From: a virus
Length of the DNA: 39,073 bases
Direction: 5' to 3' (one strand)
Virus record (IMG/VR): IMGVR_UViG_3300032895_000011
Coordinates: 1-39,073 of that record
This document shows, in pieces, positions 156 to 39,073 of this stretch (position 1 is the stretch's first letter; every line of letters starts with the position of its first letter). The notes under the pieces were generated by a model. The model was not told the DNA's origin. It was given only the letters and a program-made list of their open reading frames with translations, and did no database searches. Both the position numbers and the translations under genes were made by a program.

Positions 156-202
156 TGTAGGGCGCCAGCGAAAACTGGAAGGCGCGCCACTGAAAACCGG
201 AA
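156..202. other. attR: Phage right end with two transposase-binding repeats
   Basis: A TG dinucleotide at 156-157 starts a block that resembles the Mu end, read from outside inward. Two imperfect direct repeats follow: 162-180 (GCGCCAGCGAAAACTGGAA) and 184-202 (GCGCCACTGAAAACCGGAA). They match at 16 of 19 positions and lie exactly 22 bp apart. In Mu the R1 and R2 MuA-binding sites are also adjacent, 22 bp apart, begin about 6 bp from the terminal TG and contain a GAAAA core. The last phage gene ends about 100 bp inside. Bases 151-155 (GTGGG) would be the 5-bp target duplication; the other copy is outside the window. Confidence 0.7.
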
Positions 203-20255: not shown

Positions 20256-20780
20256 TCAGGCCGAGGCGTCGTCGCACTCGTCGCACACAAAATCGAACCC
20301 GCCGCACTGCGCTCCGCAAAAACCGCAGCGGGTTGGAAGAACGCCGCGCTGCCTGAAATGTTGCTCAACCGAATGCGCCAAACGCCGCTGGCGAGCTGGA
20401 GCGGCAACTGGCGCGGGTGCGTGCGCCGGCCCCACCGCGGCCTCCTTCTCCCGGTACGGCTCGGCCCGCTCTGCGGAAAGCTCCGCCGGCCATTGCGTTG
20501 GGGGCAGGAAAATGTCTGGAGCGCTTACAGGCTGGATCGACTGCATATAGCGGTCCCATGCTTCGTCCCCGGCTCGCAAGGCGTCCAATGGGACGCCGAG
20601 GCCGACGGCGAGCCGGAAGAGATTCGACGGCACCGCGTCGCCGCTCTCCCAGCGGAACACCATTTGCTCCGATACGCCGCAGAACGCGGCGAGCACAGTC
20701 CTGGAAAACCTGCGCCTAACTCGGGCTCCGCGGATGCGCAGCCCGAGTGAAGCGCTGGAGAGGGGAGAACGCTTCTTCAC
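20256..20780 (-). CDS. XRE-family regulator with C-terminal zinc-finger-like tail
   Basis: 174 residues. Residues about 12-70 form a helix-turn-helix (RIRGARVRRRFSRTVLAAFCGVSEQMVFRWESGDAVP). Residues 152-169 have CGFC and CDEC pairs (Cys152, 155, 166, 169), a likely C4 zinc site. The middle is Pro/Ala-rich. It starts by ATGA overlap with the preceding small gene. A regulator here, between genes G and I, is not part of the Mu late set. The target could be the adjacent gap before gene I. Role unknown. Confidence 0.7.
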   Translation of the reverse strand: MKKRSPLSSASLGLRIRGARVRRRFSRTVLAAFCGVSEQMVFRWESGDAVPSNLFRLAVGLGVPLDALRAGDEAWDRYMQSIQPVSAPDIFLPPTQWPAELSAERAEPYREKEAAVGPAHAPAPVAAPARQRRLAHSVEQHFRQRGVLPTRCGFCGAQCGGFDFVCDECDDASA

Positions 20781-23047: not shown

Positions 23048-23293
23048 TCAATAGCTCTTCCGCTCTGGGAACGGAGATGACACGACGGTTTTGCCGTGTA
23101 GCAGGACCGGTCCTCTGTCGAAGTTTTCCAGCCGCCACCCGAGTACTTGAAGCGCGTCCGCGAACGCCCGCGTGTGCCGCATCCAGTGATCCGCGTACGC
23201 GACATGCCGCACCAGATCAGCCAAGGCATGCTTGGGCTCGCCATTGCACGGAAAATCCCATGGGAAACTGACTGTTTCAGCCGGCTTTATCAT
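23048..23293 (-). CDS. Small hypothetical protein between portal and F
   Basis: 81 residues from ATG 23293, in ATGA overlap with the portal stop. It starts MIKPAETVSFPWDFPCNGEPKHA and contains RHVAYADHWMRHTRAFADALQVLGWRLENFDRGPVLLHG. His- and Trp-rich, soluble, no motif recognised. Other Mu-like genomes usually go directly from portal to F, so this is an added small gene. A shorter overlapping frame on the same strand (23032-23244) is judged a shadow. Confidence 0.55.
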   Translation of the reverse strand: MIKPAETVSFPWDFPCNGEPKHALADLVRHVAYADHWMRHTRAFADALQVLGWRLENFDRGPVLLHGKTVVSSPFPERKSY

Positions 23294-25152
23294 TTTGTCC
23301 ACCCGCTCGTATCGATCCCCAGCTCGTGCGCCTTCGCCAGTATCCGCCGGCGCGCCTCGGCGCGTTGCGCGTCGGACAGGCCCTTCGTGTTGTCCACCAT
23401 GTCCCACGCCAGTTGCACGTGGTGCGCATCGTGGATCGGCAGCTCGTGCAGCTCGGGCACTGCGAAATCCTCGGGGCGCAGTCGCCGGCGATCGGCTGCC
23501 GTCAGGTCCGACATCCGGGACACCTGCGCGGCTTGCAGCTCCTGCACCACGGCCGCCTGCCCGACCAGCTCGGCCAGCGCCATGCCGCGGGCCATCGCCT
23601 CGGCCAGTTCCTCGGGCCGCAGCTTCAGCGCGTGCAGGCGGTGCACCAGGTCGTGCATGTCGGCGGCGTGTTCGAATACCGCGCGCACCTGCGCGGTCAG
23701 CCCGTGCATCGCACCGGCGGCATCGCGCGCCAGGCGTTCGTTCAGCGCCGCCAGCACTGCATCGTCCGCGCCCGGCTGCTCAGCCAGCAGCGCGGCGAAC
23801 AGGCCCTTCCGCGGCGCGGTGGTGTCGTTCGGCAGTTCCACCTTGCCGGCCTGCGGCAGCGCTGGCACCTGTATGCGTTCCGTGATGCTGGCGGGCACGC
23901 CGCCCACCACCTCATCCTGCGCGTCCGGCTCATCAAGCTGCAGCAGCCCGCGGAGCTGCGACGCCTTCACCTTCAGCCCCATGCCGCCCAGATTGTGAAC
24001 CGCGTCCACTACATCCTTAACCGGCACCGTGTCGGGGCGGCCGATCGTCGCGACGGGATATTTCTTTTGCGGCCCGAAGCTGAACGCCACCATCGGCACG
24101 ATGATCTGCCGCGTCAGCGAGACACTCAGCAGCGCGGCATCGAACCGCTCCACGTCCTCTTCGACCTCGCGGTGCTCCTTGCCCACCGCATGGCCGCCGC
24201 TGATCGCTTCGGTGCCCGCCGTGCCGCCAAGCACCAGCTTGCTCACTTCGCGGTTCAGCCAGTCCGCGCGGCCGATATAAAGCTGGGCGCCGGCGGCGTT
24301 CTCCGCACCCTTGATAAATTCGATTTCCATGCTCTTGGGAACAATCGCGGCGATGTCGCCGGCGATGCTGGAAACCGCCCGCCACAGCGTGCGCTTGTCG
24401 CCGTCCGATGCCTCCGACCCGTACCGCCCCACGCGCATCGGCAGCCCGTATGCCTGCACGAACAGTGCCCAGTCCTTCAGCGTGTAGCTGGAATACATCC
24501 ACAGGAACGCGACCATGCGCGTCAGGCCGTTGCGCACCACGTTGCCGCTTTTGCTCGGATGCCGGTGCACCAGGAATTTGTGGGGCACCAGCTCCTCGAA
24601 GCCGTTCTCGCTGCGCAGCCAGATTGTGTTGCCGTCCTGCCAGCTCACTTCGAAGAACCGCTGCGGGCGATAGCAGAACTGCGCCGGCACCACGCGGCCT
24701 GGCGCGCTATCCCAGATGATTTCGTGGACGCTGTAGCCCTTCGCCACCGCGTCCAGCACGTGGAACATCGCCTGCTGCAGCACGTCCGTCTTCAGCCAGT
24801 CGCGCACCAGGTCGCCGTGCTTCTTCGCGCCGGGCACGCCTTCGGCATCGGCCACCGTGATCGGAAGCTGCGCCACCTGGCGCCGCCGCTTGCCCAGCAC
24901 GCTGGCATAGTGCGGGAACAGTTCCTCGATCTCTTCGGCGAGGATCATCCATTCCTGGGTGCTGCCGTTGTCGGCGGCCTTGATGAGAGCGCCCAGCCGC
25001 GCCGGGTCCATGCCGAACGCCAGGTGGCCTTGGAACGGCGGCCGGGCGTACTGGCCGCCGGTGGGGCTGATCTCCTCATCAAACTGCGCCGCAACCGCTT
25101 TCTGGATCGGCTTCAGGGTATAGGGATCGACCAGGCTGTAAACGTCAGGCAC
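23290..25152 (-). CDS. Portal protein, Mu gp29 (DUF935), C-terminally extended
   Basis: 620 residues, GTG start at 25152 overlapping the previous stop by 8 bases. Residues about 1-480 hold the DUF935 portal pattern (RRRQVAQLPITVADAEG, VLDAVAKGYSVHEIIWD, RYGSEASDGDKRTLWRAVSSIAGDIAAIVPKSMEIEFIKGAENAAGAQLYIGRADWLN). It forms the head vertex for packaging. Residues about 552-620 (FAVPELHELPIHDAHHVQLAWDMV...QRAEARRRILAKAHELGID) look like a separate small domain, seen on other phage head proteins, and lengthen the protein beyond the usual about 510. Confidence 0.92.
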   Translation of the reverse strand: MPDVYSLVDPYTLKPIQKAVAAQFDEEISPTGGQYARPPFQGHLAFGMDPARLGALIKAADNGSTQEWMILAEEIEELFPHYASVLGKRRRQVAQLPITVADAEGVPGAKKHGDLVRDWLKTDVLQQAMFHVLDAVAKGYSVHEIIWDSAPGRVVPAQFCYRPQRFFEVSWQDGNTIWLRSENGFEELVPHKFLVHRHPSKSGNVVRNGLTRMVAFLWMYSSYTLKDWALFVQAYGLPMRVGRYGSEASDGDKRTLWRAVSSIAGDIAAIVPKSMEIEFIKGAENAAGAQLYIGRADWLNREVSKLVLGGTAGTEAISGGHAVGKEHREVEEDVERFDAALLSVSLTRQIIVPMVAFSFGPQKKYPVATIGRPDTVPVKDVVDAVHNLGGMGLKVKASQLRGLLQLDEPDAQDEVVGGVPASITERIQVPALPQAGKVELPNDTTAPRKGLFAALLAEQPGADDAVLAALNERLARDAAGAMHGLTAQVRAVFEHAADMHDLVHRLHALKLRPEELAEAMARGMALAELVGQAAVVQELQAAQVSRMSDLTAADRRRLRPEDFAVPELHELPIHDAHHVQLAWDMVDNTKGLSDAQRAEARRRILAKAHELGIDTSGWTK

Positions 25153-25435
25153 CGGTCATCTCCATTTCTCGCACGATCGGATCGTCCGGGTTCAGCTTCG
25201 GCGCCACGCCGCGCGGCAGGTCGCGGCGGTATTTCCACAACAGCCGCTGCACCCAATGCCGATGCTCGGCGGTCAGCGTCTTCGGATCGCGGCGCGTCAG
25301 GCCGTCCACCAGCGCCGCGTCGGCCGGCGCCAGCGTGATGCCAAGCAGCGCCTTGATGCGCGTCACCATGACCGGCGCCATGGTGATGGCCATGCGCTCT
25401 TCGTCGTCGTCCTGCTCGGGTGCCTGCCAGGCCAT
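25145..25435 (-). CDS. Small helical hypothetical protein
   Basis: 96 residues. It contains MVTRIKALLGITLAPADAALVDGLTRRDPKTLTAEHRHWVQRLLWKYRRDLP, a basic helical segment. It begins right after the XRE gene stop (TAGATG) and overlaps the portal start by 8 bases. Position between terminase and portal and basic character fit a packaging-related accessory protein, but no family is recognised. Confidence 0.6.
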   Translation of the reverse strand: MAWQAPEQDDDEERMAITMAPVMVTRIKALLGITLAPADAALVDGLTRRDPKTLTAEHRHWVQRLLWKYRRDLPRGVAPKLNPDDPIVREMEMTGA

Positions 25436-25819
25436 CTAGCCGGGCGCCTTTGTCAGAACATTCCTGATCAACGTGGCTTTATTGGCGATCACTTCGAGCG
25501 CTTCGAGCGCTTTGCAGATGCCGCGCATGTCGAACAGCTCCCTAAGCCCCGCCGTCAGTTCGTCGGCGATCTGTTGTTTGACATAGCGAATAGCAGACGG
25601 ATCGCCCGTGATCAGCCATGCGATGTCTGTCTCCGGAAACTCGGAGGAAATGCCTAAAATGATGTCGATGTTGACCTTGTCGGCTCCCCTTTCGACGGCA
25701 CTTAGATAGCTCGGCGAGATCTTGAGCCGCGCCGCGAACCTGCGCTGTGAAAGCTTGCTGTGCCTGCGCACGGCGCAGACCCGCTTACCGATGCCGATAT
25801 GCTCCGGCTGAAGGCCCAT
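25436..25819 (-). CDS. XRE-type transcription regulator inside the packaging operon
   Basis: 127 residues. GGAGG lies 5 bases before ATG 25819, and the ATG forms TGATG with the terminase stop. Residues about 12-60 form a classical Cro/C1-like helix-turn-helix (RHSKLSQRRFAARLKISPSYLSAVERGADKVNIDIILGIS), continuing with a phage-repressor-like FPETDIAWLITGDPSA region. The C-terminus is a helical possible dimer domain (LREL FDMRGICKALEALEVIANKATLIR). Lower in G+C than terminase and portal. A regulator here is unexpected; it could act as a late-stage or superinfection repressor. Confidence 0.75.
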   Translation of the reverse strand: MGLQPEHIGIGKRVCAVRRHSKLSQRRFAARLKISPSYLSAVERGADKVNIDIILGISSEFPETDIAWLITGDPSAIRYVKQQIADELTAGLRELFDMRGICKALEALEVIANKATLIRNVLTKAPG

Positions 25820-27438
25820 CACCGCCTCCCCATGAACGCACCGCCGCGCAGCGGAGCAAGCAGCCCCCCGCGCGACGGCAGCGGGTTGTCTTCCTCAAAC
25901 GTGTCCGGCCTGTCGCGCCATCGGTGCTGATCGGCAGCCGCATCGCGGCGCCCCGCGGCCTCGTAGCCGTATTCCTCCGGCTCGGCCTGGCTCGCGTAGA
26001 AGTCGAGGAGCGCCGCTATCATGCCGTCGCCGTGCCGCGGCTCGCCGTCCACGCCTTCCACCTTCATGTCAGCGACTGTCGGATTGCCCCGCACCAGCAC
26101 GGCCACGCGATGATCGGCGATCACGTCATCGCCGGGCGGCAGCCGGAACGAGAGATCTTCCAGCGCCGCGCGGTACTCCGGGAACCACTCGCTATACCAT
26201 TGTGCGGTCGCTTTGATGCATTCGATCCGCTCGGCGCCAAACTTCTGCTGCGCCGCCTCTGCATGCGACTGCCCGTTGCCGCGCGCGTCCAGCGCACCGC
26301 GCTTGAATAAGGGCAGCATGTCCACCATCGCGAACAGGATATATTGCTGCACATCGAACGGGATGCGCCGCAGCTCGATTTGCAGCGCCGGCGACCAAAC
26401 GGCTGGGCGATCCTGCTGGCTCACCAGGATGACAGAAAGGTCGCCGTCGCGGCCGAAGTCCTGGCCAAACACGTGCCGCTTTTTCGGATCGAACGCAGCT
26501 AGCAGCGGCGCCAATTCCAGCTTCACCCATTGCTTGGTTTCCGCCAGCCGGTTGTCATCCAGGTACCAGCCTTCCGGCTTCGACCATTTCAGCACCGGGA
26601 CGCCAGCGATCTGGGCACGCTGCACCAGGGTTCGCGGGAAGTAGGCACCTGAACTCTTGCGCGGGATTACCTCGAGTTCTTCGTCCCGCGCCTCGGTCCG
26701 CGCGCCGTAGCTGCCGGTTATCTTGTCCAGCCACTTCTGCTTGCCTTCCGCGCTTGGCGTCCAGCCGCGCACCAGGCAGACACGCTCATACAGGCCGTTC
26801 TTGACCGCGAGAGAGAACGGGATGTGATGGATTTTATAGGCATAGAGGCCCTTGCGTGTGTCTTCGATCAGCGTGTTGAATGCATTGTCCTGGCCGTTAT
26901 GCGTGCTGATGACGCGGATCTTGCCGCCCCAGATCAGCAACGCATTCACTGCATCCAGCACTGCCGACACGTCCTGGTGGAACGCCGCCTCGTCAACCAC
27001 CACGATGCCTTGCAGCCCGCGGATGTTGGCTGGCCGGCTGGACAGCGCCACGATCTGGAAGCCCGAGGCAAACCGCACGCGATAGGCGGCGATATCCTTG
27101 CTGGTACCGTCCTCGCGCTCATCCTTGAACAAGAATTCTTCGATCTCTGCCAGCTCTTTCGCGACAATCTGAGCGAAGTGACCGACGTAGCGGATGAATT
27201 CGAGACCCTTTTCCTTCGTGTCGCCGATGTAGAAGACGTTGTCTCCGCCGGCGTCCCGTGCCGACGCCGCGACGATGGTATCGTCCAACGCCTCGGCATA
27301 GGTGATGCCGGTGCGCCGGCCCTTCTCGGCGATCTTCAGGTCCGACGTATCTTCCAGCCAGGCGCGCTGGTGCGCCATAAGGGTATCGAACTCGATATAG
27401 AAAGTGTCGGCCGGCGACCGAGCAGGCTGCTTATCCAT
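25819..27438 (-). CDS. Terminase large subunit, Mu gp28
   Basis: 539 residues from ATG 27438 (MDKQPARSPADTFYIEFDTL), overlapping the previous stop by 8 bases. The longer frame upstream is a shadow. The ATPase domain has KGRRTGITYA as Walker A-like (residues 39-48), GIVVVDEAAF as Walker B (145-153) and ISTHNG (178-182). The nuclease domain has Asp327 (FGQDFGRDGD) and Asp384 (ALDARGNG), as in headful terminases. Powers DNA packaging with the portal. Confidence 0.94.
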   Translation of the reverse strand: MDKQPARSPADTFYIEFDTLMAHQRAWLEDTSDLKIAEKGRRTGITYAEALDDTIVAASARDAGGDNVFYIGDTKEKGLEFIRYVGHFAQIVAKELAEIEEFLFKDEREDGTSKDIAAYRVRFASGFQIVALSSRPANIRGLQGIVVVDEAAFHQDVSAVLDAVNALLIWGGKIRVISTHNGQDNAFNTLIEDTRKGLYAYKIHHIPFSLAVKNGLYERVCLVRGWTPSAEGKQKWLDKITGSYGARTEARDEELEVIPRKSSGAYFPRTLVQRAQIAGVPVLKWSKPEGWYLDDNRLAETKQWVKLELAPLLAAFDPKKRHVFGQDFGRDGDLSVILVSQQDRPAVWSPALQIELRRIPFDVQQYILFAMVDMLPLFKRGALDARGNGQSHAEAAQQKFGAERIECIKATAQWYSEWFPEYRAALEDLSFRLPPGDDVIADHRVAVLVRGNPTVADMKVEGVDGEPRHGDGMIAALLDFYASQAEPEEYGYEAAGRRDAAADQHRWRDRPDTFEEDNPLPSRGGLLAPLRGGAFMGRR

Positions 27439-27910
27439 GCGCCACCGCCCCTTCGGCCGCCGCATCCAGTAGCCGCGCCACCCATCGCAAGATGTGATCA
27501 ACCGATCCCCCCGGCACGCCGTCCCACTCGCCGGGATAGTCAGGTCCCTCGCCGCGTTGATCGGTATGAAAGCTGACCTGGCCCGTCGGCAGATCGACAT
27601 AAAGCACGAACTTGTGGAACGGCTGCTGCGGATCTTCACCCCAGCCCCAGCCCAGCCCGCATTCCTCGGCGTGTTCGCCCAGGATCTTCGACAGGTTGCC
27701 TATCGACCATTGCTTCGTGTCGTAGGCGGCGGATTTATATCGCCGACCGCGATAGACCTTCGCACGCGAGCTTGTCTTTTGCGCGCGCAGCAGGTTCACC
27801 GCGACCTGGCCGGCCGGCCCGAGTTCCGCCAGCCGCGCATACAGCGCACGCGTGGCGTCGCCGTCGCTGCCTTCATAAACCCGCAGCACCTGCGCCAGCA
27901 TCTCACCCAT
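27431..27910 (-). CDS. Conserved hypothetical protein before terminase
   Basis: 159 residues. N-terminal helical part (LAQVLRVYEGSDGDATRALYARLAELGPAGQVAVNLLRAQKTS), then a Trp/Gly-rich passage (KSAAYDTKQWSIGNLSKILGEHAEECGLGWGWGEDP...HKFVLYVDLPTGQVSFHTDQRGEGPDYPGEWDG). The strongly patterned, low-redundancy sequence is clearly coding. It overlaps gp27 (8 bases) and terminase. Function unknown; nothing suggests an endolysin active site. Confidence 0.75.
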   Translation of the reverse strand: MGEMLAQVLRVYEGSDGDATRALYARLAELGPAGQVAVNLLRAQKTSSRAKVYRGRRYKSAAYDTKQWSIGNLSKILGEHAEECGLGWGWGEDPQQPFHKFVLYVDLPTGQVSFHTDQRGEGPDYPGEWDGVPGGSVDHILRWVARLLDAAAEGAVAHG

Positions 27911-28481
27911 GCGCCACCGCCCGCAGCCCCAGCACGTCCCGCCGGATTTGCGCCGCCCGCTCCGCGGACAGGCCAGCCTGACTGGCGCATGCCTCGGCCT
28001 TGTCCGCCGCCTCAGTCAGCGCTTCGGCCCGCGCCCGCTCAGCCGCACGCTTTTCCGCGGCGGCGATGAAGTCCTGGTTTGTCTTGCTGGCCCGCGTCAG
28101 GTCCGCGATGCCCTTGCACATCTTGCCGAAGCTGTCCGCATCGAGCGTCACGCCCCGCTCCAGCTTCATTACCATCTCTGTGAGCTGCCCCTGCATCAGC
28201 TCGACATTTAGTTGCGTGGCAGCGCTCCCCGGCGCGCCGTCGATATGCCGATTGAGCATTTCAGAGACCTGGCGTGTGAACCGCAGCCGCTCGCCGATTT
28301 CATCCATTTCCTTGATGTGGCGCCCCAGTGCGCTGCGGCTGACCCGCTCAAGAGCTTCGACGCCCTCCATTCCGCGCAGGTGCACCAGAATGTCATCGAT
28401 CGTGTGCCCCTTCTGACGCAACCGGCCGATCTCGGCCTGGACTTCCTCGGGCAGCCTATCGATGGAGGATTGCCGACCCAC
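27903..28481 (-). CDS. Mu gp27-like protein (DUF3486), probable small terminase
   Basis: 192 residues, GTG start at 28481. It opens GRQSSIDRLPEEVQAEIGRLRQKGHTIDDILVHLRG, the DUF3486 signature with a helix-turn-helix (DDILVHLRGMEG..LERVSRSALGRHIKEMDE). The C-terminal part is a charged helix. The family sits directly before the large terminase in Mu-like phages and is considered the DNA-recognition subunit. Confidence 0.88.
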   Translation of the reverse strand: MGRQSSIDRLPEEVQAEIGRLRQKGHTIDDILVHLRGMEGVEALERVSRSALGRHIKEMDEIGERLRFTRQVSEMLNRHIDGAPGSAATQLNVELMQGQLTEMVMKLERGVTLDADSFGKMCKGIADLTRASKTNQDFIAAAEKRAAERARAEALTEAADKAEACASQAGLSAERAAQIRRDVLGLRAVAHG

Positions 28482-30366: not shown

Positions 30367-30747
30367 TCAGACCGCAAGATTGAACTGAAGGTCGTTCGGC
30401 TGCCGGGACCGCCCGGCCAGGAACCGCCGCACCGAATACTCGGCGAGCTTCACGCGCCGGGCGATTTCCACATTCGACATGCCGCGCGCCGCATAGACCT
30501 GCATGCGCCACTGTTTTGCCAGCGGCAGCGCGACCTTGTCGCCGCCATAATAGCGGATCAGCGTGGCGGTGGCATCCTTGCCGATCAGTGCCTCAAGCCG
30601 CTCGTGCACCGTCCTGTGGTTGCCCGCTAGGCCGTTCGGAACCCAGAATCGCGTGCCGCCATATTCTTCGATCAGCAGCAGCGCGGCATCCAGGCCGATC
30701 CATTCGACCAGGTCGGAAACGCTGGCCGGGGGCGGCGGCAGCTTCAT
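30367..30747 (-). CDS. mor: Mor/C-type late or middle transcription activator
   Basis: 126 residues from ATG 30747, in ATGA overlap with the gene before it. LVEWIGLDAALLLIEEYGGTRFWVPNG and ALIGKDATATLIRYYGGDKVALPLAKQWRMQVYAARGMSNVEIARRVKLAEYSVRRFL carry the Mor-family dimer domain and helix-turn-helix (about residues 79-111). In Mu, Mor turns on C and C turns on late promoters. Only one such gene is visible here, so it may do both jobs. The HTH lies next to the tandem repeat and hairpin. Confidence 0.88.
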   Translation of the reverse strand: MKLPPPPASVSDLVEWIGLDAALLLIEEYGGTRFWVPNGLAGNHRTVHERLEALIGKDATATLIRYYGGDKVALPLAKQWRMQVYAARGMSNVEIARRVKLAEYSVRRFLAGRSRQPNDLQFNLAV

Positions 30748-30992
30748 CGCACCAGGCGCGGCTGCTGAAGCGTCACCGTCTGCCGCACCGTGAAGCTGCA
30801 ATCGCCGTCGGTTTTCGTCCAGGTCAAGCGCAGCGTCAGGCGCCCGTTATTCAATCCCTTCGGCGCTCGCACGGGCTTCAGCGTGAACCCTTCGCGCTTC
30901 AGCACGTTCGACACAGGCTCGATGGTCAGCGCCGCGATCAGCTCCGCCACCGCTGCACCGTTGATGCGCTGTCCGCGGCAGGTGATGATCAT
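30744..30992 (-). CDS. Small early hypothetical protein
   Basis: 82 residues (MIITCRGQRINGAAVAELIAALTIEPVSNVLKREGFTLKPV...). The C-terminal half is rich in beta strands and basic residues (GRLTLRLTWTKTDGDCSFTVRQTVTL). It overlaps the Mor-like gene (ATGA) and the preceding gene (ATGA). No family recognised. Confidence 0.6.
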   Translation of the reverse strand: MIITCRGQRINGAAVAELIAALTIEPVSNVLKREGFTLKPVRAPKGLNNGRLTLRLTWTKTDGDCSFTVRQTVTLQQPRLVR

Positions 30993-35387: not shown

Positions 35388-36362
35388 TCACGCCCCCCCT
35401 CCGCTCAACTGCGACCACGCCCCGCGCACATGCTCCACGCCCAGCGGCTGACTGTTTGCCGCCGCCAGGCCGAACGCGATCCGCAATGTCATGGTCAGCC
35501 CGCGCAGGCCGCCCGGCTGCAGCGCAATTCCCTGAAGCTCGGCGCGCTCCGCGTCCCCGCTCACGCTCCAAGCGTCCAGCAGCGTCGCGATATCGGGCTT
35601 CGTCGGCCGCGGCGGCGCAAAGCGCACCCCGACGCGGCTGCTGATCTGCGCCAACTGAACGCGCCGCCGCGCCAGCCCCATATGCGCGTCCAGATCGTGG
35701 TTGCCCGCCAGCACGATCCCCACGCTGGCGGCATCGAAAATGCTGCGCACCTGGTCCAGCGCTTCCACCGACAGGTGCTGCCCTTCGTCGATCATCAGCA
35801 GCCCGCGCGTGCCCTTCAGTCGCAGCACGATGCGGGCGTAAAGTTCCGCCACGCGCCCCGGCAGCCCCAGCCTCATGTTGGTGGCGATCTCGCCCAGCAC
35901 TGCGGAAATCCGCGTGTGGCACGGCGTCAGCGTCACCATCCACGTGGTCTGCGGATATTGCTCCGCATACGCGCTCAGCGCCTGCGTCTTGCCGACGCCG
36001 GAGCCGCCAACCACCACGCCGATCGTCGGCGTCGCCTTGGCGAAGTCGCAGATTTCCCAGATCCGGGATGCCGTCTTCGTCATCACGAACGGCGGCTCGG
36101 CCGGCAGCGTCGCCTTCGTCCGCGCCCGCGCCTCACGCCCCATCAGCCACGCGTTCACCGCGCGCGTCACGCGCTTGTTGTCGCCGGCATAGGTGCCGGC
36201 CCGCCATGCCGACAGCGTCTGATACGCGATGCCCGTCTCCGGCTGGATCCGGCTCAGCGGCCGACCGTCGGCCTTCGTCGCCGCGTCGAATTCCGCGCGC
36301 ACGGCCGCCTCGTCCAGCTCCGGCGCCGCTCTTTCCAGCAGGTCTTCTGTGGTGCTACTCAT
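35388..36362 (-). CDS. B: MuB-type target-choice ATPase
   Basis: 324 residues (Mu B is 312). N-terminal helix-turn-helix (RPLSRIQPETGIAYQTLSAWRAGTY, about residues 34-58), then an AAA+ domain: Walker A GGSGVGKT (119-126), Walker B GLLMIDEGQHL (187-197), sensor region IVLAGNHDL. It binds DNA as an ATP filament and delivers target DNA to the transposase. The ribosome site (AAGGAACGAGG) precedes ATG 36362, and A stops 30 bp upstream. Confidence 0.94.
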   Translation of the reverse strand: MSSTTEDLLERAAPELDEAAVRAEFDAATKADGRPLSRIQPETGIAYQTLSAWRAGTYAGDNKRVTRAVNAWLMGREARARTKATLPAEPPFVMTKTASRIWEICDFAKATPTIGVVVGGSGVGKTQALSAYAEQYPQTTWMVTLTPCHTRISAVLGEIATNMRLGLPGRVAELYARIVLRLKGTRGLLMIDEGQHLSVEALDQVRSIFDAASVGIVLAGNHDLDAHMGLARRRVQLAQISSRVGVRFAPPRPTKPDIATLLDAWSVSGDAERAELQGIALQPGGLRGLTMTLRIAFGLAAANSQPLGVEHVRGAWSQLSGGGA

Positions 36363-36392: not shown

Positions 36393-38351
36393 TCAGTCGC
36401 CGGTTTCTTCACGAACCACGTGCAGATGCGCGCCGCCTGGCCGGGCTGCGCGTATCTGTGCGAGTGCGCTGAACAGCGCGTCTTCCTTTTCCTCCTGCTC
36501 TGTGTCGGGGATCGGCTGCAGCGCCGCGCTGCCGCGCGCCAGGCGCACCACCTTCGCCGCCGGCAGCGGCGCGGGCTCGGGCGCATCCGGCAGCAGCGCC
36601 GCCACTTCCTGGATCGACATGCGCCGCTCGGCGTCCAGCCTGTCGCGTTGCGCCCGCCGCCATTGATTCCGCGCGCGCGCATGGTCCTGCGCCGCGTCGA
36701 TGTTGTTGAAGCCCGCAGCCTCGCGGCACGCCGCCGCGCCCAGATACGCCCCGTCCAGCCGATACACATGCAGCGGCTGCTGCAGCTTCTCGGGATCGAA
36801 CCGCGCCACCACGCGATGGCCGCGCCATTCGTGCAGGAACTCGCCCCAGAAACGATTGCCCAGCAGCTCGATCACGCCGTCCTGCTTGCCCACGGCCAGC
36901 CCCTCGGCGGCCAGCAGCCACAGCCGGCGTTGCTCCGGCGTCGCCTTGCGGATCGGCGAGCGCTCATAGCTCTCATTGAACACATCATCGAAGGATCGGC
37001 CTTCGCACACGCGGCTGCGGCGCCCGACGCGGGAGTTGTGCTCAACCACCGCCTCCGCGACCACCGCGACGAATACATCCAGCGGCACCGCCTTGCTGCC
37101 GTAATTCTCCGGCTTCGCCAGCGGATCGTTGCCGGTATAGGCACCGGCGAATTTCGGATGCTTCGCCGTGTCGGTGGCGAAGTCGCGGAACGCGCGCTCG
37201 ATCGGCTTCGCCTGGCCGTGATATGGCGTTGTCCAGTGCACGGTCACGCCGAGCTGCGTCATGATGCCGCTCGGTTCGTCATCCAGCACTTTGAAGCGAT
37301 ACCGGTTCGGCGTGCCCCCGGTCAGCCACTTGCTGGCGAACGCGCGGCCATTGTCCAGCCACGCATCGTCAGGGATGCCGAACTCTTCCACCAGGTCGCC
37401 GAACGCCAGGCGCACCGCGGCGCGGTTCTCGCTTTTATCGACGCGCCAGGACAGCATCTTGCCCGAAAGCAGGTCCTGAAACGCCACCATCACCGGGCGC
37501 CCGACGTAACCGTCCGGCCAGCGCACGAACACGTCCCACTTGTGGCCGTCGGCGTTCACCGCTTGCAGGGCATGGAACACGCTGCGATCGCGCACTTGCG
37601 CGGGGAACATCGCCTTCACCGCATCCACGCCCTCGCGGGCCAGCACCCGCACCGGCTCCGGCAGCGCACTGATGCGCCGCAGCAGCGTGCGCTTGCTGGC
37701 CAGCGTCCAGCCGTGATGCTTGGCGGCGCGTTCCAGCCGGCGGAAGCACCCGGTGAAGCTGGGGCGCTCCGGCCGCAGGTAATCGGCTTTTAGGAACTCC
37801 CACGCCTCGGCGCTGCATTCCACCGTTTCGGTGCTGCCCGCGTGGCGCGGCGCGAGATACGGCAGCCAATCAGGCCGCTCCACGCCGGCCACGGCCGCTG
37901 ACCAGCTATAGAAGGTGGATTTGCTGGCGCCCGCGCGCCGCGCGACCATGTCCACCGCCACCACGCGATCGACGCCGTTGCGCACCAGCGCTTCCACCGC
38001 CCCGATCGCTTCCAGCTTCGCCTTCGCCTTCGCTTTCTTCTTGTCAGGCAGCGCGTCGAACCACGCCCACATCTCTTCCCGCGTCAGCGTGGCCTTCGCC
38101 CGCTCGCGTTCCGACGCCTGCTCGATCTTGGATAGCTGGATAGCCAGATCAGCCTGCGCGGAAAGCGGCAGCAGGCTGTAGTGGTACTCGATGCCGCCGC
38201 CACGCCCCTGCCGATCGCGGCACAGCGCACCCTGCTCTTGCCACCGCTCGCGTTTCGCCAGATCGATCACTTTGCCCTTGGTCGCGGGCATGCCGGCCAG
38301 CGCCATCGCGGCGATCTCGGCCGCGCTGAACCATTCCTGCGCCAGGCTCAA
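36393..38351 (-). CDS. A: Mu-type DDE transposase (MuA)
   Basis: 652 residues (MuA 663). The only usable start is TTG 38351, in a TTGA overlap. The N-terminal winged-helix domain (AQEWFSAAEIAAMALAGMPATKGKVIDLAKRERW) is complete. The catalytic core has Asp268 (NADGHKWDVFV), Asp333 (LDNGRAFASKW) and Glu385 (KPIERAFRDF), the DDE triad. The C-terminal tail likely contacts B and ClpX. It catalyses end cleavage and strand transfer at the TG-ended phage termini. Confidence 0.96.
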   Translation of the reverse strand: MSLAQEWFSAAEIAAMALAGMPATKGKVIDLAKRERWQEQGALCRDRQGRGGGIEYHYSLLPLSAQADLAIQLSKIEQASERERAKATLTREEMWAWFDALPDKKKAKAKAKLEAIGAVEALVRNGVDRVVAVDMVARRAGASKSTFYSWSAAVAGVERPDWLPYLAPRHAGSTETVECSAEAWEFLKADYLRPERPSFTGCFRRLERAAKHHGWTLASKRTLLRRISALPEPVRVLAREGVDAVKAMFPAQVRDRSVFHALQAVNADGHKWDVFVRWPDGYVGRPVMVAFQDLLSGKMLSWRVDKSENRAAVRLAFGDLVEEFGIPDDAWLDNGRAFASKWLTGGTPNRYRFKVLDDEPSGIMTQLGVTVHWTTPYHGQAKPIERAFRDFATDTAKHPKFAGAYTGNDPLAKPENYGSKAVPLDVFVAVVAEAVVEHNSRVGRRSRVCEGRSFDDVFNESYERSPIRKATPEQRRLWLLAAEGLAVGKQDGVIELLGNRFWGEFLHEWRGHRVVARFDPEKLQQPLHVYRLDGAYLGAAACREAAGFNNIDAAQDHARARNQWRRAQRDRLDAERRMSIQEVAALLPDAPEPAPLPAAKVVRLARGSAALQPIPDTEQEEKEDALFSALAQIRAARPGGAHLHVVREETGD

Positions 38352-38806: not shown

Positions 38807-38997
38807 ATCAGCGCCTTCCGCTCAGCAATCGGGAAATTCCCACAGTCGTTATTTGGACGCGCGGGTAATGCTTCCGCTCTCGGAACTGCTGATAAACCAG
38901 ACAGATGAGGGTTTCGCGATATAGCCGGCTTCTTACGCCTGGATTGATTAGTCTCTTACCGCCCGACTCTTGCCATTTTGTGGCAAGAAAAATCCCA
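38807..38997 (-). promoter_or_regulatory. Early control region with operator-like palindromes
   Basis: No convincing gene. An 8-bp inverted repeat TCTTGCCA(TTTTG)TGGCAAGA spans 38968-38988. GGGAAATTCCC (38831-38841) is a second small dyad, and TTCCG(CTCT)CGGAA (38872-38885) a third. A weak -10-like TATATC (minus, 38923-38918) has a poor -35. The region is more A/T-rich than neighbouring genes. Consistent with a repressor-controlled early promoter. Confidence 0.5.
38968..38988. promoter_or_regulatory. Inverted-repeat operator candidate
   Basis: TCTTGCCA and TGGCAAGA, 8-bp arms, 5-base spacer. Not a terminator for leftward reading because no T tract follows on that side. Sits 160-180 bp upstream of the first early gene. 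Likely repressor or Ner-type binding site. Confidence 0.45.
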
Positions 38998-39073
38998 TCA
39001 AGTCATAGCCGGAACGATCATTGTCTCGGTGAGCCAACCGGCGGCCGCAACGGCAGCGCGCCCGGCCTTGGTC
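38998..39073 (-). CDS. C-terminal end of an early or regulatory gene, cut by window edge
   Basis: Twenty-four codons to a TGA at 39000-38998; the frame is open to the edge and ends GWLTETMIVPAMT. Ala/Gly-rich preceding residues. Ner or another small regulator would lie here in Mu, but too little is visible to assign. Confidence 0.4.
   Translation of the reverse strand, partial: TKAGRAAVAAAGWLTETMIVPAMT

Follow-up and report, generated by a model that had tools for sequence, protein, structure and literature searches.

The window, that is the whole 39,073-nucleotide stretch of viral DNA analysed here, is a contig of a Mu-like transposable phage whose minus strand carries nearly all of the genes. 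The genes and sites concerned are as follows.

36393-38351: transposase gene
35388-36362: MuB gene
30367-30801, minus strand: late transcriptional activator-like gene (phrog_836), lying 5' of the late gene run that holds the XRE gene
27903-28481: Gp27-type small terminase gene
25819-27435, minus strand: Mu-type large terminase gene (terL), extendable to 27639 with an upstream GTG
25822-25831, minus strand: purine-rich ribosome site GGGGAGGCGG, inside the 3' end of terL at a GGAGG...TGATG joint, which serves g96 in relatives
25436-25819, minus strand: XRE/HTH_3 regulator gene of 127 amino acids, with the HTH at about residues 10-70
25145-25435, minus strand: g96, a conserved protein of 96 amino acids and of unknown function, which follows terL in most relatives
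23290-25152, minus strand: Mu-type portal gene, assigned by a Portal_Mu domain match
163-202, plus strand: two direct repeats CGCCASYGAAAACYGGAA (163-180 and 185-202), spaced 22 bp, candidate transposase sites at the right end of the phage

Positions 1-155, on the outer side of the candidate transposase sites, are very G-rich; this stretch is probably host DNA flanking the phage or sequence of low quality. Since no right-end-type repeat was found near position 39073 of the window, the phage's left end, and the repressor region with it, probably lies outside the window.

The open reading frame at 25436-25819 encodes 127 amino acids from the ATG at 25819, or 128 from an upstream GTG, and the plus strand across the same positions is broken by stops. 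As the window has a G+C content of 67% and contains 244 open reading frames of at least 60 amino acids, length alone is no proof of a gene. The predicted protein gave an HTH_3 match of 33.6 bits against a Pfam cut-off of 23, and PHROG transcription regulators matched its residues 9-112 with a best E value of 1.7e-11; these matches indicate that the frame is more than a product of chance. The first-pass annotation had described a Cro/C1-like, repressor-like protein of 127 residues, and the domain score together with the best homologue, an HTH protein at a c-repressor position, supported this description. The product is probably a DNA-binding regulator of the CI-N-terminal-like or Cro-like HTH_3 type, judging from these matches. 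Only HTH families were matched, and neither a C-terminal LexA/S24-type peptidase nor an oligomerisation domain was found in the protein. The C-terminal 54 residues or so are predicted to be helical and gave no match in phages, leaving the C-terminal third without a homologue found, and a single-sequence structure model of the protein reached a mean pLDDT of 54.8, a confidence too low to allow a fold search.

Both ends of the XRE gene are joined exactly to its neighbours. The start lies in GGGGAGGCGGTGATG, which contains the terL stop, the TGA of terL overlapping the ATG of the XRE gene, while the XRE stop TAG directly adjoins the ATG of g96, whose own upstream match AAAGG ends 11 nt before that ATG. 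The gene had been placed between terminase and portal, and this was correct for the terminase side, where terL adjoins it; on the other side g96 intervenes before the portal gene. The strong ribosome site and TGATG coupling to terminase that had been pointed out are indeed present at the terL stop, as GGGGAGGCGG-TGATG. They are not a mark of the XRE gene, as the terL/g96 joint of relatives often shows a TGATG behind a purine-rich stretch; the occurrence of the same joint in relatives without the XRE gene indicates that the ribosome site and the coupling belong to the joint and were inherited from it.

The g96 protein belongs to an unnamed family with the motif WKYRRxLP...P.DPIV. About 27 related contigs encode a member between terL and portal, and some (L030, L035, L038 and L042) have a second copy. 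Its structure model was all helical with a pLDDT of 84, and searches with g96 gave no structural match and no convincing PHROG match.

Relatives were fetched from IMG/VR by portal and by terL. The XRE gene was found in none of the 128 distinct related terL 3' ends that were followed by portal, and no open reading frame of any fetched related phage locus matched the XRE protein, the sole matches being the window's own copy and the homologues included on purpose from the database. No XRE homologue was detected in 31 whole related phage records, in a search run without a positive control. Close relatives were likewise absent from viral contigs, whether the query was used alone or with the Acetobacter homologue described below, and genome contigs scanned with a portal alignment or with the Acetobacter homologue gave no match. 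The XRE gene is thus known from one copy only among the relatives searched. In the portal-fetched set, terL was followed directly by g96 in about 24 of the 27 distinct g96-bearing contigs. The absence of the gene from related junctions indicates that it is an insertion into a fixed terL/g96 joint, as read from the sequences compared. The location that had been given, the most conserved part of the operon, holds for its neighbours but not for the gene itself; the suggested check for presence in relatives showed it to be missing from all those examined, at the junctions and in the whole records alike.

In several relatives, long open reading frames that appear glycosyltransferase-like by eye lie between g96 and portal (L004, 4975-5913; L005, 5014-5853; L015, 4150-5130; L016, 4490-5914), which indicates that the region accepts cargo. 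The terL/g96 slot itself is filled in L003 (3820-4011) by a 63-amino acid open reading frame of unknown function. The C-terminus of this frame looked similar to that of the XRE protein, but no local alignment was obtained and it was rejected as a relative.

The base composition of the XRE gene sets it apart from its surroundings. Its G+C content is 57.8% against 66.7% in the window, which places it in the lowest 0.65% of 384-bp stretches, and against 63-68% in terL, g96 and portal. Comparison of the neighbouring genes revealed two lineages. The terL product was 72% identical to that of L040 and 65-70% identical to those of most of the contigs L073-L081 (overall range 65-74%), and in most of L073-L081 portal comes directly after terL. 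Contigs with a portal 60-71% identical to that of the window had a terL only 40-43% identical. The g96 product was 55% identical to that of L003, g96 and portal together being 55-71% identical to their lineage, and the 159-amino acid gene upstream of terL followed the portal lineage again, with 62-65% identity in L003, L014, L024 and L041. Since the flanking genes belong to the portal lineage and terL to the other, terL appears, on these identities, to have been exchanged as a single gene whose neighbours on both sides follow another lineage, with the XRE gene at its 3' breakpoint, exactly where the ancestry changes.

This position suggests that the XRE gene could be a passenger, carried in when recombination exchanged terL and kept only through translation coupling to g96, and the single occurrence of the gene and the C-terminal third without a homologue found are consistent with that. 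With a single known copy, selection on the gene is not measurable. The frame is intact, the HTH is complete and the joints are exact at both ends, all of which argue against a mere passenger, and the XRE gene is missing from every contig seen whose terL is related, so that it was not simply carried along with the known terL lineage and either arrived separately or came from an unsampled donor. We regard the passenger reading as unlikely. The XRE gene rather looks like a recently acquired extra than a core late switch.

Searches with tblastn yielded only distant homologues, in 3 phage and 16 plasmid records, with 29-40% identity. The best of those found was the HTH protein WP_035346056.1 of the Acetobacter aceti plasmid pAACEN2 (31% identity over 107 residues), whose gene lies in a Mu-like prophage remnant, divergent from transposase (MuA-like) and MuB-like genes. 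Both proteins have the same HTH type and share a FP-x-x-D-x-x-WL-x-TG segment; WP_035346056.1, on the other hand, has 182 amino acids, another C-terminus and a gene at the c-repressor position, while the XRE protein has 127 amino acids and is encoded in the late operon. The position of the homologue supports a repressor-type origin of the XRE gene, although shared operators are not thereby shown. A further reading would have the phage's own repressor moved into the late operon; the window ends before the left end of the phage, where relatives carry their own repressor-like and Ner-like genes, and the repressor-like genes there showed no resemblance to the XRE protein.

A repressor of second-phage type might bind the operators of related or competing Mu-like phages sharing the cell and so block them, and the c-repressor position of the Acetobacter homologue and the foreign base composition of the XRE gene both point in that direction. 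An identity of 31% is nevertheless uninformative on shared operators, and a lysogen would get no protection from a protein made only late; a sigma-70 consensus scan showed no promoter belonging to the gene. Such interference is a conceivable but minority reading. A more specific version, in which a lytic phage makes a competitor's stolen immunity repressor from its late operon along with the packaging motor and so silences the competitor or its prophage, is quite improbable.

Two palindromes in the window had been put forward as operators.

38968-38988: TCTTGCCA-TTTTG-TGGCAAGA, with 8-bp arms, upstream of the first early gene of the window, a possible operator
76-90: AACTAAC-G-GTTAGTT, with 7-bp arms

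The first of these is a genuine palindrome, yet neither could be linked to the XRE gene. The two have no half-site in common and their arm sequences are unrelated. The palindrome at 76-90 probably belongs to flanking DNA outside the right end of the phage, since it lies outward of the tandem end repeats starting at 163. Palindromes of the 38968-38988 kind numbered 14 in the whole window against 12.8 expected under a Markov model, while only 0.02 would be expected in the 267-bp stretch ahead of the early genes, so that the site is locally unusual.

No promoter or terminator match was found beside the XRE gene in a scan limited to the sigma-70 consensus. Together with the tight minus-strand run 3' of the late-activator-like gene, this makes late production plausible, and the proposed co-production with the packaging proteins can be retained at that strength, from gene order; late expression through coupling is likely. 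The further proposal, that the phage uses the protein to switch its early genes off late in infection, was not supported. A Cro-like feedback repressor belonging to the phage's own programme, made with the packaging proteins and silencing the early operon near 38968-38988, would be in keeping with the HTH_3 domain, with the place of the gene downstream of the late-activator-like gene and with the locally unusual palindrome. However, every relative whose terL or portal is of the same kind does without the XRE gene, which disfavours feedback on the phage's own early genes; moreover, such palindromes are about as numerous across the window as chance predicts, and the window ends before the left end, where relatives hold repressor-like and Ner-like genes of their own. 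The feedback reading is therefore very doubtful.

Weak HTH-only matches to HipB-, PezA- and HigA-type antitoxins raised the question of an antitoxin of a toxin-antitoxin pair, or of an Aca-type repressor of an anti-CRISPR operon. All of the antitoxin matches were far below the curated cut-offs, and g96 occupies the same place in relatives without the XRE gene. Both readings, which we consider extremely improbable, were rejected as the adjacent genes are terL and g96, with no toxin or anti-CRISPR-like gene among them. Like the Aca regulators, the XRE protein is a small HTH protein encoded among late genes of a Mu-like phage; unlike them, it lacks an adjacent gene of anti-CRISPR type.

At 20256-20780 on the minus strand, just upstream of the protease/scaffold gene, lies a gene for a second HTH protein, whose C-terminus bears a zinc-ribbon-like pair of CxxC motifs; L042, L044 and L039/L040 likewise have HTH genes at this place. 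By analogy with the accessory and anti-CRISPR genes that Mu-like phages of Pseudomonas also carry at fixed sites, an Aca-like or Com-like role of its product may be worth testing.

Compared with CI-type repressors of lambdoid and Mu-like phages, the XRE protein has the same N-terminal HTH_3, but its gene lies outside the immunity region, between terL and g96, and the protein gave no C-terminal peptidase match. Classical morons usually, though not universally, have their own promoter and terminator. In Mu-like phages of Pseudomonas aeruginosa, short accessory genes occupy fixed sites; they are often low in G+C, and anti-CRISPR genes are among them (PMC4378225). The XRE gene resembles these accessory (moron) genes in being a short extra gene at a core-gene joint, low in G+C and absent from relatives, and differs from them in that no flanking promoter or terminator was seen in the sigma-70 scan and in that it encodes a regulator in the terL/portal joint.

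Taking together the HTH domain, the exact joints, the absence in relatives, the deviant composition and the change of ancestry, all read directly from the sequence, we favour as probable a horizontally acquired, moron-like accessory HTH_3 regulator inserted precisely between terL and g96 at a mosaic junction. The accessory-insert part of this explanation is very probable on the same grounds, while a function in repressing an early promoter of the phage itself or of a competing phage is proposed tentatively, as something short of probable. The XRE gene would be translated from the late transcript by way of the pre-existing ribosome site at the distal end of terL, and g96 would now be reached by TAGATG stop-start coupling through the XRE gene. 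The helical C-terminus may let the protein dimerise to bind DNA, both the dimer and the fold of this part being guesses given the low-confidence structure model. The protein would repress a promoter that lies elsewhere than in the late operon and most plausibly belongs to the phage, prophage or host element from which the gene came.

As a regulator among the accessory genes of a Mu-like phage, the XRE gene is of a known kind, and this slot and this gene are new as far as searched. It is a single but clear case in which a regulator gene has entered a joint between packaging genes, exactly coupled and at a mosaic breakpoint. Should its product repress a competing phage, late-expressed stolen repressors would represent a weapon of phage against phage; otherwise the XRE gene simply adds to the accessory genes of transposable phages.
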